Positions 558 to 9,673 of a stretch of 23,435 nt of DNA are shown here, in pieces. The position numbers were made by a program, and so were the translations under genes. A model generated the notes under the pieces. That model did not search any database. It worked only from the letters and a program-made list of their open reading frames with translations, and had not been told where the DNA came from. Each line of letters begins with the position of its first letter. The stretch's first letter is position 1. Source of the DNA: a virus; the IMG/VR virus record IMGVR_UViG_3300035670_001266, positions 1-23,435 of that record. One strand, 5' to 3'.

Positions 558-1694
558 ATGTTATCTTTCACACAATTTCTTTCGGAAGCAACCCACGTTG
601 GTGGTATCCAACATATAGAACATCCTTCCGATAGATCGTTTGACAGTAAAGATGCAGCACACCACGCCTTGTCTACATTGCGTGGTGTTTTGCATGGGAA
701 AACTCCTATTACTCGTAAGATCGATGACAAAATGTCCTATCAGGTCATTCGTACCAAAGAAGGTAAAGTCGGTGTAAAGTATAAGGGTCCTGGTGCCCAC
801 TACAACTTCTCTGAAAAAGATATTGATAAGCAGCATGGTCATAAACCATATCTTGCTGGTCCGCTAAAAGCCCTATTGAAGCATGTTGGTAAAGTTCTAC
901 CTCAGAAAGAGGGAGAATATCAGGGTGGCTATATGAGTGAACCTCATACCCGCGAAACAAAGAATGGCCACATTACACATACTCCAAATACAATTGAGTA
1001 TCGCACATCTACTAATAGTCCAGAAGGAAAGAAACTTGCTGCATCTAAGGTCAGCACGGTCATTCACTCGGAACTAAAGGGTCCTGATCGCACCGCTCAT
1101 CCTATTACAGACACATCACACTTCGATTCACATCCTGATGTGCATCTCGTGCAACATCTCGTATCACCAGAGCATAGAAAAGTTTCTTCCTATGTGGAGA
1201 AGGTGGTCAATCATCACCTAGATGCCGCAGAAAAGTCAATGAAGGGGCATTCATATGCCCATCTTGGTGGTCATGAACAACATCTAAGATCATACATCAA
1301 CAAGACTGTAAGTAGTGGCGAAGCACCGTCTGTAGAGGGTTATAAGAAACATCTATCAGCCGTGCATCAAAAGAAGATTGATGGCGTGAAAACACAAGCA
1401 GCCAAAGATCGCAAGACAGAAGATATGAAACGAGACTTGCAGCATGTTCAAGCCCACACCAAACATTTCGACAAGTCGCTAGAGATTCACCATCATCTAC
1501 AACAAGCAACAAATTATCTTGCACGTGGTCTAGATGCTCACGGCGCAGGTGGTTTTACTACACATATCAATGATAAGGCTGCAGGTGGCGAGGGCTATGT
1601 TGCAAGTGGTATCAAGGTAGTTGATCGCGAAGGCTTCTCTAAGGCCAATAGAGAACGTAGTGAAATCCTTAGAGCAAGCAGAGGAAAGAAATGA
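558..1694 (+). CDS. ligase-like nucleotidyltransferase-fold protein with putative capsid targeting N-terminus
   Basis: A 378-aa protein resembling a family of T4-like marine phage proteins that I recall as DUF6267. Its motifs follow the covalent nucleotidyltransferase (DNA/RNA ligase) order: KIDD at 54-57 where ligases have KxDG, a YQGGYM strand at 121-126, EGYV at 345-348 resembling motif IV, and IKVVDR at 352-357 resembling motif V. The Gly of KxDG is Asp here, so activity is uncertain. A His/Lys-rich helical segment (about 195-320) separates the two halves. The first residues, MLSFTQFLSEA, match the T4 internal-protein capsid targeting sequence, with a potential gp21-type cut after LSE (8-10). 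It starts 27 bases after a late promoter. It overlaps the next nucleotidylyltransferase gene by ATGA, suggesting joint function. The family match rests on memory; the motif order is seen directly. Confidence 0.75.
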   Translation: MLSFTQFLSEATHVGGIQHIEHPSDRSFDSKDAAHHALSTLRGVLHGKTPITRKIDDKMSYQVIRTKEGKVGVKYKGPGAHYNFSEKDIDKQHGHKPYLAGPLKALLKHVGKVLPQKEGEYQGGYMSEPHTRETKNGHITHTPNTIEYRTSTNSPEGKKLAASKVSTVIHSELKGPDRTAHPITDTSHFDSHPDVHLVQHLVSPEHRKVSSYVEKVVNHHLDAAEKSMKGHSYAHLGGHEQHLRSYINKTVSSGEAPSVEGYKKHLSAVHQKKIDGVKTQAAKDRKTEDMKRDLQHVQAHTKHFDKSLEIHHHLQQATNYLARGLDAHGAGGFTTHINDKAAGGEGYVASGIKVVDREGFSKANRERSEILRASRGKK

Positions 1695-2308
1695 GCGAAG
1701 TTCATCACCATATCACACAAGGTAGAATGAATCCTATCACGGTTGGTCACGAGGCTGTTGTCAATCAGGTTCGTAAGGCTGCTGGATCACATGGACATAC
1801 AATCGTTCTAACTGGCACACATGACGCTAAAAAGAATCCTCTTACACCAGAACAAAAACTAAAGCATGCCAAGAGAGCATTTCCTGGTGCTAATGTTCGT
1901 CTGCTAGACAAAGAGCATCCAACTCTTCTACATCAACTATCAAGACTTCACAAGCAGGGTGTAACACATTTACATCTACACGTTGGTTCTGATCGCGCTC
2001 ATGAGTTTCATGCACTGACACATAAGTATAATGGTGTAGAGGGTCGACACGGTCATTACAACTTCAAAAAGATTACCATTCATACGGTGGGTAAAGAACG
2101 TTCAGATGCCGACAGTGGTGTGGCTGGAGCATCTGGTACAAAAATGCGTAAACATGCAGAAGCTGGTAATGAAAAAGAATTTCATAAGATGGCACCAAGT
2201 GCCATGTCTAAAGCACATAAGCACGAACTCTATAAAGATGTTCGTCGAGGCATGGGACTTCATGAAGCACTATCATTCAAAGATTTCTTAGGAGTAACAA
2301 ATGTCTAA
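1691..2308 (+). CDS. phage nucleotidylyltransferase (cytidylyltransferase-like, HIGH superfamily)
   Basis: A 205-aa protein of the alpha/beta nucleotidylyltransferase superfamily. The N-terminal loop GRMNPITVGH (11-20) carries TxGH in place of HxGH. GSDR at 99-102 and ASGTKMRKHA at 147-156 match the second nucleotide-binding motif, (I/A)SxTxxR. Such enzymes transfer NMP to a phosphorylated substrate; the substrate cannot be told here, but NMN-adenylyltransferase-like or sugar-phosphate activities are possible. AGAGGAAAG at 1680-1688 is the ribosome site and the start overlaps the ligase-like gene (ATGA). The protein ends with LSFKDFLG (194-201), which resembles the N-terminal LSFTQFLS of its upstream partner. 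High histidine content is shared by both proteins. Confidence 0.85.
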   Translation: MSEVHHHITQGRMNPITVGHEAVVNQVRKAAGSHGHTIVLTGTHDAKKNPLTPEQKLKHAKRAFPGANVRLLDKEHPTLLHQLSRLHKQGVTHLHLHVGSDRAHEFHALTHKYNGVEGRHGHYNFKKITIHTVGKERSDADSGVAGASGTKMRKHAEAGNEKEFHKMAPSAMSKAHKHELYKDVRRGMGLHEALSFKDFLGVTNV

Positions 2309-3044
2309 CTTCATGTGGCAGGATTGGCCGGGTCTAAATCTAGCAAGAGGTAAAGTTCGTGGTGCCTCTGTTGTGCATAAATTTGGTGCGACTCCTCAGA
2401 TTTCAACTTCTACGAATGCCACAATTTGGGACATTTCAGATACTCTTTATCCTTGGTCTGCATTTGCCACTCCTGGTGTTTTGAATGTTGATTGTGCCAG
2501 CACTTCTGATATCGGTCACAGTGTTACGATCACTGGTCTAGATGCGGACTTCAATGTTGTAACAGAAACAATTAGTCTTGCTGTTCAAAATAATAATACT
2601 GGCACACAGGTATTCAGTAGAGTTTATAGAGCGTTCTTTGATGGCGGTTCAGCAAATGTTGGTAATGTCAGTATTCAAATAAATTCTACTACTGTTGCTA
2701 GAATACAAGCTGGTAAAGCGCAGACACTAATGGCTGTCTATACTGTTCCTGCTGGATATAAAGGCTATATTTTCAAGGGTGATGCTACCGTGCAAGCTGG
2801 TGCTGATATGACTTTAGGTATGTATGTTCGCTACGGTGGAACAGGCGCTTTTAGAATTGGCCACCAAGCAGAAGTATCTCCAAACGGTTATCAATATGAT
2901 TTTCCTATTCCCCTGGAACTACCAGAGAAAAGTGACATTGACATAAGAGCATACGCAAATACAAACAACATTCGAGCCACTGCGGTATTCGATATAGTTC
3001 TAGTAAAGGACAGCGAATTTAGTCAGTGGAGTAACGGCTACTAA
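2301..3044 (+). CDS. beta-rich virion structural protein (putative)
   Basis: A 247-aa protein rich in Thr, Ser, Asn and Gly with beta-strand patterning throughout and few charged residues, typical of phage capsid-decoration or tail-associated beta-sandwich proteins. The segment VHKFGATPQIS followed by a WDISDTLYPW stretch resembles virion proteins that I recall from cyanophages and related phages. It has no catalytic motif or membrane segment. AGGAG at 2290-2294 supports ATG 2301, which overlaps the preceding stop by 8 bases. It is followed at once by the lysis genes. Its role in the virion is inferred from composition and late position. Confidence 0.65.
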   Translation: MSNFMWQDWPGLNLARGKVRGASVVHKFGATPQISTSTNATIWDISDTLYPWSAFATPGVLNVDCASTSDIGHSVTITGLDADFNVVTETISLAVQNNNTGTQVFSRVYRAFFDGGSANVGNVSIQINSTTVARIQAGKAQTLMAVYTVPAGYKGYIFKGDATVQAGADMTLGMYVRYGGTGAFRIGHQAEVSPNGYQYDFPIPLELPEKSDIDIRAYANTNNIRATAVFDIVLVKDSEFSQWSNGY

Positions 3045-4003: not shown

Positions 4004-4011
4004 TATAAATA
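4004..4011 (+). promoter_or_regulatory. T4-type late promoter (TATAAATA)
   Basis: An exact TATAAATA in the 42-bp gap between the o-spanin and the 669-aa protein. It is the second perfect late element in the window and the likely driver of 4042-11941, a run of structural, head-associated and lysis genes with no other clear promoter. Confidence 0.85.
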
Positions 4012-4040
4012 GGGGTATAGAGTTTAAACTTGGAGACCCC
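4012..4040 (+). promoter_or_regulatory. potential leader hairpin around the ribosome binding site
   Basis: GGGGT (4012-4016) can pair with ACCCC (4036-4040). The loop contains the perfect palindrome AGTTTAAACT (4021-4030) and the ribosome site GGAGA (4032-4036). The left arm begins directly after the late promoter element, so a late transcript starting about 6 bases downstream would lack most of it, whereas read-through RNA from upstream would carry both arms. This suggests masking of the start site in read-through RNA only. The stem is short (5 bp). Confidence 0.4.
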
Positions 4041-4041
4041 A

Positions 4042-6051
4042 ATGAATAATGTAACCGCACAATCTATCATTGAAAAGGCTAAAGCCAAGTCCAAGAAGGA
4101 TTGGACTGGAGCTAAGGCTGATAAAGATCGTTTCATTCTTCCCGAAGAAACACATGAAAACTGTGGAACACCAGATTGCTGCGGCGAATGTGATACGGCT
4201 GTAACCGAAGCCAGAGGTTCAGACTACACTCTTTATCACAAATCATACACCGATGCAATCAATCATGCTCTTTCACATCACGAAAAGTCTGGTCTAAAAG
4301 TTTCAGATGATGATCGTTTTCAGCATGTTGGCGTCGGCTCTAAGAAGCCAAGCGAAGGTAACACAACGTCATTACATATTCCTGCCACGCATTCTAGTGG
4401 TAAGAAGCATATTCTTCACGTTCAAGTCTTCAATAAGGGCGGCACACATCCTTACGAACTAAACACATACTCAAGTGGTATGGGTCGTAGTGTAAAGGAA
4501 GAAGCCGAACTTGAAGAAGGTTACGGCATGTGGAAAGTAGAGTTTCCTAAGCAACATGTTGGTAAACAAATAGAAGCGGGTTCTGTCCATGTCAAGGCTC
4601 AAAACACGGCTCATGCGCACAAGGTTGCTGCTAAAAGAGTTGGTGTTGATCATAAAGTATTCAAATCGAAAGTAACAAAGTCTTCAATACTTCCAGAAGA
4701 AGTAGAAGATATCATGGAGCGCGGAGAAGACTCGAAGGGCCATTATCGTGCTACCGAAGATGGTGCAGGTCTAACTCGTAAGGGCGCTAAAGCAATGGGC
4801 GTCAAGACAGCCGTTACAACTCCGCCAAGCAAACTAGATCCAGATGGTAAGGCTGCAAAGCGCCGTAAATCATTCTGCGCCCGCATGGGTGGTATGAAGG
4901 GTCCAATGAAGGACGAGAAGGGTCGTCCAACTCGTAAGGCTATGTCACTTCGTCGTTGGAACTGCAATGAAGAACTAGGTAAAGAAAACGAATGGGGTCG
5001 TCCTGAACTCCGTAAGAAGTTTGCTGCTATGACACCCGGTCAAGAAGGTCTAGCAGCCGATGAGATTCCAGCAATGAATCCATTTTCTGGTGATGCAATC
5101 CATGAAGAACAAATCAATGAAATCTCGGCCCTAGGTGCCAAGAAGCGTTCCGAATTCGCTGCCAAACTACAAAAGAGACTTGCCGATCCGAAATCTATCG
5201 CAAAGGCTAAGAAAGAAATTGCAAAGAAAAAGGCAGCCGAGAAGGCAGAAGCACCTAAGCATCTTGTTATGCAACTTCGTAAAGCATCTAGCATTGGCTC
5301 AAAGGTAAAGTTCTATGATGGTTCGGAACATCATGTTGCTCCTAATCACGTAGAAAAGTTCAATGATCGCTATCACTCGTTGAAGTCATCGATTGAAAAA
5401 GAAAGTCTAGTCAAGCGCGCCCATAAATCACATGCTGAATTTATGAGAGCCATCTCAGAAGAAACTGAGATGGGACAGCCAGAGAAGCCTTGCACTTGTG
5501 ATATCACTCCTGCAAATTATCCAACACCATCGCAACTATCACCAGAGCCAGCACTAGGTGACATGAACCATGATGGCGCAACTAATGAGTGGGATGAGGC
5601 TGCAATCGAAGCAGAAGTATCACATGAAATCGAAACTTCCGACTGGGATCATCTCGAACAATATTATGAAGCCGAGGAAGAAGATGAAAACGAAGACGAA
5701 GAACAGGAAGCAATCGATGAAGCGATTACTCCACAGGGTCGTCTAAAGAAAAAGTTTGCCGCGATGCGTAATAAGACACGCCGTAATCTCGCTAAGAATA
5801 TGGCATTAAAGCGTATCGCTACACCAGATCGTATTAAGGCTCGTTCTATTCGCGCCGCTCGTCGCATGGTATACAAGCGCATTCTGCGTAATCGTGATCC
5901 ATCTTCTGTATCAGCCGCAGAGAAAGCAAGATTGGAAGCACAAGTGAAGCGTATGGCTCCTATGGTATCAAGACTTTCAATTCGCCTTCAACAAGCCGAA
6001 AGAAAGCGTGATATGTCCCGCGTTCAAAATGCGAGAACAAGAAAGAAATAA
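4042..6051 (+). CDS. modular basic/acidic phage protein, putative head-internal or core protein
   Basis: A 669-aa low-complexity modular protein. ATG 4042 follows GGAGA by five bases; a TTG at 4030 in frame overlaps that ribosome site and is rejected. Parts in order: an N-terminal Cys cluster (C41, C46, C47, C50); a segment around 240-308 with SFCARMGGMKGP and TRKAMSLRRWNC that I recall as a widespread phage domain (DUF6321); Lys/Ala-rich helices (365-405); a CTC motif (484-486); an EF-hand or dockerin-like loop D507-D518; a very acidic stretch (543-560); and an Arg/Lys-rich C-terminal domain (565-669) that could bind DNA. Several L/I-x-E sites (LEE, LPE, INE, ISE, IDE) fit prohead-protease cutting. 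A late promoter precedes it. A head-internal role is inferred. Confidence 0.7.
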   Translation: MNNVTAQSIIEKAKAKSKKDWTGAKADKDRFILPEETHENCGTPDCCGECDTAVTEARGSDYTLYHKSYTDAINHALSHHEKSGLKVSDDDRFQHVGVGSKKPSEGNTTSLHIPATHSSGKKHILHVQVFNKGGTHPYELNTYSSGMGRSVKEEAELEEGYGMWKVEFPKQHVGKQIEAGSVHVKAQNTAHAHKVAAKRVGVDHKVFKSKVTKSSILPEEVEDIMERGEDSKGHYRATEDGAGLTRKGAKAMGVKTAVTTPPSKLDPDGKAAKRRKSFCARMGGMKGPMKDEKGRPTRKAMSLRRWNCNEELGKENEWGRPELRKKFAAMTPGQEGLAADEIPAMNPFSGDAIHEEQINEISALGAKKRSEFAAKLQKRLADPKSIAKAKKEIAKKKAAEKAEAPKHLVMQLRKASSIGSKVKFYDGSEHHVAPNHVEKFNDRYHSLKSSIEKESLVKRAHKSHAEFMRAISEETEMGQPEKPCTCDITPANYPTPSQLSPEPALGDMNHDGATNEWDEAAIEAEVSHEIETSDWDHLEQYYEAEEEDENEDEEQEAIDEAITPQGRLKKKFAAMRNKTRRNLAKNMALKRIATPDRIKARSIRAARRMVYKRILRNRDPSSVSAAEKARLEAQVKRMAPMVSRLSIRLQQAERKRDMSRVQNARTRKK

Positions 6052-6053
6052 TT

Positions 6054-6491
6054 ATGGATGAACTACAAACGGCTATGAAGATAGTTCTAGCCAATACATA
6101 TGCAATGTATTTCAAAGCACAGGGCTATCACTGGAACGTAGAAGGCAAAGACTTCTCACAGATGCATGATTTCTTTTCTGGCATCTATGAAGAACTATTT
6201 GCCGCAGTAGATACTATCGCAGAAGAGATTAGAGCCTTAGATGCTTATGCTCCATATAACATGACAGAACTTGTAAAGATTACAACTGTTACCGAATCTA
6301 ACATCTATGGTGTTGAAGTTTCTAAGATGTTAAATGATCTTTTGGCTGCAAATGCTTCTGTTATTGAAGCGTTAAATTCGGCTCATAGATTAGCAGAAGA
6401 AGAAAACAATAGGGGTCTGGTTAATCTAATTGAAGAAAGACTAGACGTTCACGCCAAGCACGGTTGGATGATCCGTGCATCCTCTAAGTGA
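6054..6491 (+). CDS. dps: Dps-like ferritin (DNA protection during starvation)
   Basis: A 145-aa ferritin-like protein of Dps type. The diagnostic residues are present: H26 in YHWNVEG, H38 in QMHDFF, and D53 and E57 in VDTIAEEIRALD, which together form the inter-subunit ferroxidase centre of Dps. Dps dodecamers oxidise Fe(II) with peroxide and store it, protecting DNA from hydroxyl radicals. It has no long basic N-terminal tail, so tight DNA binding through such a tail is not expected. It starts two bases after the 669-aa protein, inside the late operon and not among the early genes, so it is made when virions assemble. Whether it protects replicating or packaged DNA, or is itself packaged, is open. 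Confidence 0.93.
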   Translation: MDELQTAMKIVLANTYAMYFKAQGYHWNVEGKDFSQMHDFFSGIYEELFAAVDTIAEEIRALDAYAPYNMTELVKITTVTESNIYGVEVSKMLNDLLAANASVIEALNSAHRLAEEENNRGLVNLIEERLDVHAKHGWMIRASSK

Positions 6492-6517: not shown

Positions 6518-7498
6518 ATGTCACTAGAACAAACAATAAAAGACACACTGTTGTCAGAGTCGGTCGATCTAGATGCTCGTCTTCAACAACTTGTTCGCGC
6601 CGGTTTAATGCCAGCGAATACTATTCCTGTATTGCGCAAGGCTATTGCTAAGGTGCAGGGTGGTATGGTACTTCAAGGTGCCGAGCGTGATGTTATGGCA
6701 AACTTTCTAAACTCCATGATGTTTATTGTTCTTGGCGATGATGCCATTTTCAATAAAGCCAGAGTAAATGCTAAGTCTGTACCACATCATCCATATATCC
6801 AGTATGCAACCGAAGAAACCGAAGTTGTAGAAGGCGAAAACAAAGAGATGAAAGGTAAAGATCCTTGTTGGAAGGGCTACGAGATGGTAGGCACCAAGAA
6901 GAAGGGCGGAAGAGAAGTTCCTAATTGTGTACCTGCTAACGAAGAAGTCGAGAACTTGGACGAACTTTCAAGAGCAACAGTTGGTCGTTACTCTATGAAA
7001 GCGAAGTCAATCGCTGACAATGAGGGTGGTAAGGATCGCACTAAGGGTCGTGAACTAGCAGGCCGTAAGAAATGGGGTGGCACAATGTCTGGTGTCAAGA
7101 AAGCCAAAGTAATGGCAACCGAAGAAGCCGAACAGATTGATGAACTTTCAAAGAAGACTCTCGCATCCTATATCAATAAGTCAACGCAAAATGCCGTTGC
7201 TAGAGGTATCGATTACGGATATTCGAAGGACTCCAAGGACTCTGCTAATGCTCTAAAGAAACTTCCTAATAGGGTTCAGGGCATCAAGAAGGCTACCGAT
7301 AAATTAACAAAGGAATCTCGTCGCGCAGAAGCACTTGCGGATATTGCGTCCGTAACACAGATGAATGAATCATATAGAACTACATTTAATGCAGCACTTG
7401 AACAGTTTAACATCAAGTCTCCCTCGGAACTTGATGAAGAAAAGAGAAAAGAATTCTTTAATTTCGTAGATCAAAATTACAAAAAGGGAGACAACTAA
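6518..7498 (+). CDS. modular phage protein with repeated IDELS units, putative head-internal protein
   Basis: A 326-aa hydrophilic protein. The N-terminal helical part (1-85) is followed by KDPCWKGYEMVG ... VPNCVP (115-139, C117 and C137), a motif that I recall from many T4-like phage proteins. Two diverged repeats follow, 60 residues apart: ENLDELSRATVGRYSMKA (145-162) and EQIDELSKKTLASYINKS (205-222). The C-terminus, FNAALEQF ... SELDEEKRKEFFNFVD, is another recurring phage ending. LSE (12-14), LDE and IDE are candidate L/I-x-E prohead-protease sites. AAGGAGA at 6506-6512 gives a strong ribosome site for ATG 6518. It follows Dps and shares the late operon. Function unknown; packaged or scaffold-related role inferred. 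Confidence 0.7.
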   Translation: MSLEQTIKDTLLSESVDLDARLQQLVRAGLMPANTIPVLRKAIAKVQGGMVLQGAERDVMANFLNSMMFIVLGDDAIFNKARVNAKSVPHHPYIQYATEETEVVEGENKEMKGKDPCWKGYEMVGTKKKGGREVPNCVPANEEVENLDELSRATVGRYSMKAKSIADNEGGKDRTKGRELAGRKKWGGTMSGVKKAKVMATEEAEQIDELSKKTLASYINKSTQNAVARGIDYGYSKDSKDSANALKKLPNRVQGIKKATDKLTKESRRAEALADIASVTQMNESYRTTFNAALEQFNIKSPSELDEEKRKEFFNFVDQNYKKGDN

Positions 7499-8781: not shown

Positions 8782-9144
8782 ATGTTTGAACTTAATGATG
8801 ACAACTTTTTGATCTTTGCTATAAAGAATTATGACAATCCGGGCTGTCTTGGAATGTCAGATTTAGAAGAAGATTTAAAAAGATTTAAATATATCAAAAG
8901 ATTATTTCGTCGGTATGAAACAACAGATGTGTTGAGTGAAAGATTGATACTCAATCATCTTATTGTTTTATATAATGTTTTTGGTAACGAAGCATCTTTG
9001 ATGCTTCTGTTCAAGGTTGAAAAGAAATACTGGAGTTATCTAAAGACATTTCTGGTCTATCTAAATAGAATGACCATGGATGATATCCCAGAAATACCTT
9101 TAGATATTAAAGTTGCATCTGAATTAAGGAAAATCAGTGTCTAG
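8782..9144 (+). CDS. conserved T4-like phage protein of unknown function
   Basis: A 120-aa helical protein. ATG 8782 is preferred because an extension upstream would run far into the previous gene and add a sequence unlike the conserved opening MFELNDDNFLIFAIKNYDNP. The stretch EDLKRFKYIKRLFRRY ... LILNHLIVLYNVFG matches a short protein that I recall as conserved in aquatic T4-like phages (annotated DUF7207, name from memory). No ribosome site is visible, and it begins two bases after the previous stop, so translational coupling is likely. It overlaps the next gene by 8 bases; I recall these two also being neighbours in related phages. Function unknown. Confidence 0.75.
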   Translation: MFELNDDNFLIFAIKNYDNPGCLGMSDLEEDLKRFKYIKRLFRRYETTDVLSERLILNHLIVLYNVFGNEASLMLLFKVEKKYWSYLKTFLVYLNRMTMDDIPEIPLDIKVASELRKISV

Positions 9145-9673
9145 ATATATCGATAACATTATAACGATGCGCATATTGTATATGCTAACTACTCCGTTTG
9201 ATCAAACGGATGCATATCGTTTGGGTATTGTCGATGCGCAGGGTAAAGAAATTAAACCTATTGCAAAACTAGAGACTAACGAAGAAAAAGAAGCATACAC
9301 TTATCTACATCGTTTGGTATTCAGACTTAAAAGAATCATCAATAAAGTTCCTATGGAAAATAAGAACTTCCTATCTTTTGCTGCTGCTGTTGCCTTAGTT
9401 AAAGAAGATGTTGAATATGATGATGATATTTTAGAGGAATTATTCTATATGGCACACGAAGATCCAGAAGCAATTGAACTCGCAGAAGAACTTGAAGGTA
9501 AAACACTTTCGTTCAAGCAATTTGTAGAAGAAATGGGTGTAGGTGGTGGCGGTGTTGCTGGCATCGGTATTCAAAATCCAAATATTCCAAATCAGGCTGA
9601 ACCTGGCGTCTCAAAAAAAGCACAAAAGAAATGGCGCAAAAAGAATAAAATCGTAAGAAGGAATGCACAATGA
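9137..9673 (+). CDS. conserved T4-like phage protein with SFKQFVEE motif and basic tail
   Basis: A 178-aa protein. The start is GTG 9137 with AAGGA at 9127-9131. The N-terminal domain (MSRYIDNIITMRILYMLTTP, DAYRLGIVD, LHRLVFRLKRII, LSFAAAVALVKE) resembles a helical protein that I recall from many cyano- and pelagiphages, function unknown. After residue 120 comes LSFKQFVEEMGVGGGG (124-139), similar to the capsid-targeting-like start of the protein at 558, then a flexible Gly/Asn/Pro linker and a very basic tail (159-178, KKAQKKWRKKNKIVRR) suited to binding nucleic acid. It overlaps the preceding gene by 8 bases and the next by ATGA. A head-associated or DNA-binding role is inferred only. Confidence 0.75.
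   Translation: MSRYIDNIITMRILYMLTTPFDQTDAYRLGIVDAQGKEIKPIAKLETNEEKEAYTYLHRLVFRLKRIINKVPMENKNFLSFAAAVALVKEDVEYDDDILEELFYMAHEDPEAIELAEELEGKTLSFKQFVEEMGVGGGGVAGIGIQNPNIPNQAEPGVSKKAQKKWRKKNKIVRRNAQ

Follow-up and report, generated by a model that had tools for sequence, protein, structure and literature searches.

A probable T4-type capsid-targeting sequence on a ligase-like DUF6267 protein of a T4-like phage

The question raised by this locus is whether a conserved enzyme that begins with a peptide resembling the capsid-targeting sequence (CTS) of phage T4 is carried within the head of the phage that encodes it. The stretch analysed, referred to throughout as the window, is the whole of a 23,435-base IMG/VR virus fragment. 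Its phage is T4-like and encodes the gp61 primase, a ribonucleotide reductase, thyX, and a Dps-like ferritin. The enzyme in question belongs to the DUF6267 family and, judging from the sequence comparisons described below, is very probably carried within the head. The features concerned are:

523–530, + strand: late promoter box of the T4 type, TATAAATA, ahead of the DUF6267 gene (exact match)
558–1694, + strand: DUF6267 protein of 378 aa, the predicted cargo (PF19782, E value 5.6e-37; invariant columns)
558–587, + strand: predicted capsid-targeting sequence MLSFTQFLSE, residues 1–10, with a predicted cut after E10 (kept in 93 of 93 loci; blind tests in T4, S-CREM2, and S-SCSM1)

The product of the open reading frame at 558–1694 scores 128.4 bits with PF19782, against a Pfam gathering cut-off of 27, which places it in the DUF6267 family. 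The match spans residues 18–364 and leaves the N-terminal 17 residues outside. The ATG is at 558, codons 1–11 (558–590) encode MLSFTQFLSEA, and A11 is located at 588–590. In the AlphaFold model (mean pLDDT 84.6) residues 1–20 have a pLDDT below 50, and the N-terminus forms a lone helix, residues 4–11, on a disordered tail. A tRNA-Arg gene (anticodon TCT) is present at 79–155, just upstream of the DUF6267 gene region. In three related contigs the gene is split at the same place into two overlapping reading frames of 138 and 238 aa with an 8-nt overlap (L016 6001–7126, L017 1621–2746, and L018 1380–2505), for which frameshifting and two separate proteins are both possible.

Metagenomic relatives from viral contigs provided 93 DUF6267 loci with 32 distinct N-termini and 25 distinct peptides. 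With the start codon chosen by us for the best pattern in each locus, some of whose reading frames could begin upstream, the pattern M-x-x-[F/L]-x-x-[F/Y/W]-[L/I]-x-E is present at the very N-terminus in all 93, as in the window, even among DUF6267 sequences that are only about 35% identical. M1 and E10 are invariant, position 4 is F or L, position 7 is F, Y, or W, and position 8 is L or I; residues 4 and 7 are hydrophobic or aromatic in every distinct peptide, and the [L/I]-x-E site of the gp21 protease occupies positions 8–10. The peptide is followed by a linker of 5–14 residues which differs in length and sequence (ATHVG, EKKPAA, AVHTG, SKAKPGH, and others), after which the conserved core opens with H-I-x-H. 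The DUF6267 homologues of cyanophages and of XG4 begin at this core, without the N-terminal peptide, which indicates that the peptide is an added module. On a 9-position matrix built from DUF6267 N-termini, with the threshold at a score of 8 (reached by 0.0005 of shuffled N-termini), the window N-terminus scores 22.8 when its own sequence is left out of the matrix. Comparable 10-mers occur within proteins at about 0.0005 per position.

The resemblance of MLSFTQFLSEA to the T4 signal, noted in the initial annotation, is borne out by comparison with MKTYQEFIAEA of IPII and IPIII, with which it shares M1, an aromatic residue at 4, Q/E at 6, F7, L/I at 8, E10, and A11. That annotation attributed the T4 peptide to IPI, IPII, IPIII, and Alt, which is exact for IPII and IPIII, whereas IPI begins MKTFKEFTSTT and Alt begins MELITELFDE. 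According to the passages of PMC9026906 on T4 internal proteins, amber-suppressor work on IPIII assigned targeting mainly to residues 4 and 7 and processing to residues 8 and 10, and a D at position 10 stops cutting and leaves targeting intact. The positions conserved in DUF6267, whose sequences were not part of the T4 work, are the same 4, 7, 8, and 10. As a blind test, 222 T4 proteins were scored with a matrix of positions 2–10 derived from 11 distinct N-termini of DUF6267. The proteins 61.1, ipII, ipIII, alt.-3, and ipI took ranks 1–5 (scores 7.8, 5.3, 5.3, 2.9, and 2.9), with the three small internal proteins ipII, ipIII, and ipI at ranks 2, 3, and 5; because these scores are modest, the test rests on the ranking and not on the threshold. 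Alt was not recovered by the matrix, and its rank of 64 among the 222 rules it out as a model for the DUF6267 peptide. The plain four-position rule matched 61.1, ipII, and ipIII only. Both signals comprise ten residues from Met1 with hydrophobic or aromatic residues at 4 and 7, L/I at 8, and E at 10, and both are common to otherwise unrelated proteins of T4-like phages, with a gp21-type protease encoded in T4 and in relatives of the present phage. They differ in that the window has L2-S3 where T4 has K2-T3 (the relatives include MKTFQTFLTE and MKTFLDYLTE), in that the cargo here is a conserved enzyme family and not the small basic proteins of T4, and in that a C-terminal counterpart is proposed here on the neighbouring enzyme; cutting in the present phage is a prediction.

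The same matrix was applied blind to two cyanophages. For S-CREM2, Table 3 of PMC10665884 gives 52 virion proteins. Among the 218 annotated proteins of this phage, five score above 8 (18.4, 13.3, 10.7, 10.4, and 8.1; the next scores 3.1), namely ORF154, ORF14, ORF13, ORF6, and ORF136, and each of them appears in the published virion proteome (hypergeometric P 0.0007 for the full protein set and 6e-5 excluding annotated structural genes). The tagged N-termini include those of the cytidylyltransferase ORF154 (MKNFSSFLTEA), the APH-type kinase ORF14 (MKRFDAFLTEE), and the SAM hydrolase ORF6 (MKDFDSFLEEF). The simple four-position rule gives six matches in S-CREM2, five of them in the virion list. 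The Cas9-like nuclease ORF12 (L052 7704–10313), also in that list, has the tag-like PLRFASFMAEAA near its N-terminus and ends in TFRDFLN, the only C-terminal match among the 218 proteins. In S-SCSM1, two of 282 proteins exceed 8: the NMNAT ORF91 (MKSFLQFLKEA), which is top of the 282 and a virion protein according to both PMC9602691 and the sequence record, and ORF30 (MKTFKQFMSES), which has no virion label and lies between two virion-labelled genes. The kinase of S-CRM01, reported in virions, begins MISFDQFLSEK.

In contrast, the DUF6267 protein of S-CREM2 itself (ORF87; PF19782, E value 5e-69) has the N-terminus MNKATKPLTHIEHPED, without the peptide, and is absent from the published virion list, although such a non-detection is weak evidence. 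A DUF6267 protein therefore need not be a virion protein, and the tag is the difference. As to the virion enzymes, the authors of PMC10665884 state that virion lists from CsCl preparations may contain contaminants, and in their treatment of the S-CREM2 enzymes the choice between packaged protein and contaminant is left open. Neither in those passages nor in the corresponding ones of PMC9602691 are the enzymes connected with a targeting peptide. The presence of the DUF6267-type peptide at the N-terminus of the cytidylyltransferase/NMNAT, the kinase, and the SAM hydrolase favours packaging over contamination, and would give a possible reason for the presence of enzymes suspected as contaminants. 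Our literature search on capsid targeting in cyanophages returned only a T4 review, and nothing was found on DUF6267 or by the literal peptide MKTYQEFIAE.

A search for the same N-terminus on other genes, as had been suggested at the outset, was run on the relatives and found the tag on 12 other ORFs, spread over the contigs of five relatives; one of these ORFs (G010, GTG start) is doubtful. The ORFs include those of DUF6321 proteins, HAD-phosphatase-like proteins, and a pol-beta-type nucleotidyltransferase (MKRLSSFIKED) that is 44% identical to the S-CREM2 virion protein ORF156; Pfam scans of most of the tagged proteins gave no family above its cut-off. On contig L016 an identical MLRFTTWLNE is found at the start of two different proteins. 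In the relatives, too, the peptide is common to unrelated proteins of one phage. A Peptidase_S77 (gp21-type) protease is encoded in relatives G001 and G008, with none on the 23-kb window, and the G001 cluster was read by us, from gene order and sequences, as portal, core proteins, protease, scaffold, and capsid. The protease of G001 (G001:C1:25988-26647, locus L024) begins MKLITELVED, which is similar to the N-terminus of T4 Alt.

We consider it highly likely that MLSFTQFLSE is a functional T4-type CTS. The proposal that the enzyme is packaged is supported in that the pattern marks virion-associated, mostly non-structural proteins in T4 and two cyanophages, and in that its residues match the T4 mutational data. 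The carriers found in virions are other tagged proteins, those of T4, S-CREM2, and S-SCSM1, and from them we infer the packaging, cutting, and delivery of the DUF6267 protein of the window, as well as its enzymatic role.

Motifs of the F-x-x-F-L type are common docking motifs, and the peptide might instead bind another partner, such as a sliding clamp or a protein of replication or transcription, on an enzyme that stays in the cytoplasm; the cyanophage DUF6267 genes do adjoin replication genes. This we regard as improbable, since the carriers outside DUF6267 are virion proteins, and since the invariant E10, which completes the gp21 site, is left unexplained by a docking motif. A clamp-binding motif in particular was given little weight because the four-position rule matches none of the replication proteins of T4. 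Slightly less probable still is that the tag puts the enzyme on the virion outside the head interior (neck, portal, or tail), or that the protein is scaffold-associated, degraded in maturation, and not delivered. Virion mass spectrometry cannot tell the head interior from other sites, and in the T4 account of PMC9026906 the core proteins gp67 and gp68 are either cleaved into fragments or lost. However, the nearest experimental parallels, IPII and IPIII, are described there as internal to the head and ejected, and the tagged enzymes are still detectable in mature S-CREM2 virions. A chance N-terminal helix on a cytoplasmic enzyme, with no targeting role, would be compatible with the rate of similar 10-mers inside proteins and with cyanophage DUF6267 proteins that manage without the peptide, but it is very improbable and already disfavoured by sequence conservation, as the peptide is kept in every locus while the linker varies and the same phages reuse it on unrelated proteins.

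The initial annotation had the gene starting right after a late promoter, and a box of this type is present there. The TATAAATA box at 523–530 begins 35 nt before the DUF6267 ATG. The window has two copies against 1.0 expected by chance, so that the box is weak evidence within the window and its weight comes only from the relatives, where 35 out of 48 distinct regions upstream of the gene carry the exact 8-mer within 100 nt (shuffles expect 0.5).

The enzymatic nature of the cargo was examined by its conserved residues. In the window these are K54-I-D-D, Q-G (122–123), E345-G-Y-V, and K353-V-V-D-R, and even distant members of DUF6267 share K-x-D, Q-G, E-G, and K-x-V-x-R without exception, with a spacing like that of motifs I, III, IV, and V of covalent nucleotidyltransferases, including ATP-dependent DNA and RNA ligases such as T4 Rnl1. 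Motif IV E-G and the motif V Lys of the ligase superfamily are therefore present even in distant members, whereas the motif I form K-x-D-G is replaced by K-I-D-D in the clade of the window and is found in the cyanophage (as K-W-D-G) and XG4 members. Foldseek searches with two models gave DNA ligases as the top match at values that are not significant (E value about 0.03, TM about 0.2; none reaches 0.001), and "ligase" is for that reason treated as no more than a lead. Two DUF6267 profiles searched against PDB sequences matched no ligase, and hhalign against T4 Rnl1 and Rnl2 gave no signal, nor did the negative control NrdA. The nucleotidyltransferase fold initially assigned agrees with the conserved motifs and lacks a significant fold match. 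On balance we lean towards a ligase or nucleotidyltransferase working on nucleic-acid ends.

The genes downstream provide the context, and in one case a probable second cargo:

1691–2308, + strand: cytidylyltransferase/NMNAT-like protein, 205 aa, probable second cargo (phrog_3041, E value 1.6e-47; homologous to proteins of two virion proteomes, S-SCSM1 ORF91 and S-CREM2 ORF154)
2258–2305, + strand: proposed targeting peptide at the C-terminus, ALSFKDFLGVTNV preceded by the cut site L-H-E (31 of 36 distinct relatives have the peptide pattern)
2301–3044, + strand: homologue of S-CREM2 virion protein ORF176 (38.6% identity, E value 4e-42)
4004–4011, + strand: further copy of the TATAAATA box, ahead of the DUF6321-containing gene (exact match)
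4030–6051, + strand: DUF6321-containing protein (PF19846, E value 2.7e-13; short-stretch match to S-CREM2 virion protein ORF137)
6518–7498, + strand: protein partly matching S-CREM2 virion protein ORF160 (phmmer E value 3.5e-6, short stretch only)

Since the genes at 1691, 2301, 4030, and 6518 match S-CREM2 virion proteins, the DUF6267 gene stands in a row of virion-type genes; the corresponding stretch of S-SCSM1 (ORF89–97) is mostly virion-labelled, and in relatives the N-terminal tag is found on DUF6321 proteins. Among the virion-type genes, the one at 6054–6491 encodes a ferritin/Dps-like DNA-binding protein (PF00210, E value 2.1e-22; phrog_3636).

At its N-terminus the cytidylyltransferase encoded at 1691 is untagged. 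Its C-terminus, GMG-LHE-ALSFKDFLGVTNV, is a mirror image of the arrangement in DUF6267, L-H-E being followed by ALSFKDFLG. Among 36 distinct relatives of this enzyme, the C-terminal pattern is found in 31 and the N-terminal tag in 4, with both patterns in only 1. In the forms listed, [LIV]-x-E directly precedes the C-terminal peptide, and the cut site therefore lies again between enzyme and peptide, in reversed order. Relatives ending in GMGHKD or GMGAK are without both peptide and site. The C-terminal form is put forward as a hypothesis, because the relatives stand close to one another and the regular expression is permissive. The S-SCSM1 virion protein ORF93 ends in GLPEKKKRTFKEFLEYIE. Relatives L116, L121, L126, and L138 encode a fusion of the cytidylyltransferase with a P-loop kinase-like domain (VFLAGGPGSGKD), and a tag-like or acidic stretch is present where the two parts meet.

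In the proposed pathway, MLSFTQFLSE would form a short amphipathic helix that attaches to the scaffold core through F4 and F7, and the DUF6267 enzyme would in this way be built into the prohead as it assembles. A gp21-type protease would then cut after L8-x-E10, and the freed enzyme would remain inside the head and probably be delivered to the cell together with the DNA, most likely to act early in infection as an ATP-dependent ligase or in another nucleotidyl transfer to nucleic-acid ends. The neighbouring cytidylyltransferase would probably be loaded through the mirror-image C-terminal peptide with its own L-x-E site. More broadly, it seems somewhat likelier than otherwise that a single, general code for head loading is in use among T4-type phages of aquatic bacteria. 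The code would be either the tag F-x-x-(F/Y/W)-(L/I)-x-E at the N-terminus or a mirror C-terminal tag behind L-x-E, and would serve to pack a changeable enzyme kit that acts on the host as soon as infection begins. With a similar degree of confidence, this kit may comprise ligase-like, NMNAT-like, and HAD-phosphatase-like proteins, a pol-beta-type nucleotidyltransferase, a kinase, a SAM hydrolase, and a Cas9-like nuclease. The signal itself is known from T4; its spread to phages far from T4, its cargo, and the probable C-terminal counterpart appear to be new. It can be converted into a sequence rule predicting which proteins T4-like phages bring into the cell, and the rule nominates candidate cargo both in T4 and in uncultivated phages. 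Should the C-terminal form prove real, it would constitute a second route for loading proteins into T4-type heads.

The T4 candidate is 61.1 (NC_000866, 18966–19130, locus L047), a protein of 54 residues which begins MKTFKEFIKED, has the top score of the 222 T4 proteins, and is predicted from its sequence to be an internal head protein. The window has a further occurrence of the motif:

9506–9532, + strand: internal LSFKQFVEE (LSFKQFVEEMGVGGGG near residue 124) in the protein at 9137–9673, with a Gly-rich, basic tail after it (likeness to T4 61.1 by eye)

This protein, encoded upstream of gp61, may be a fusion with a 61.1-like peptide.
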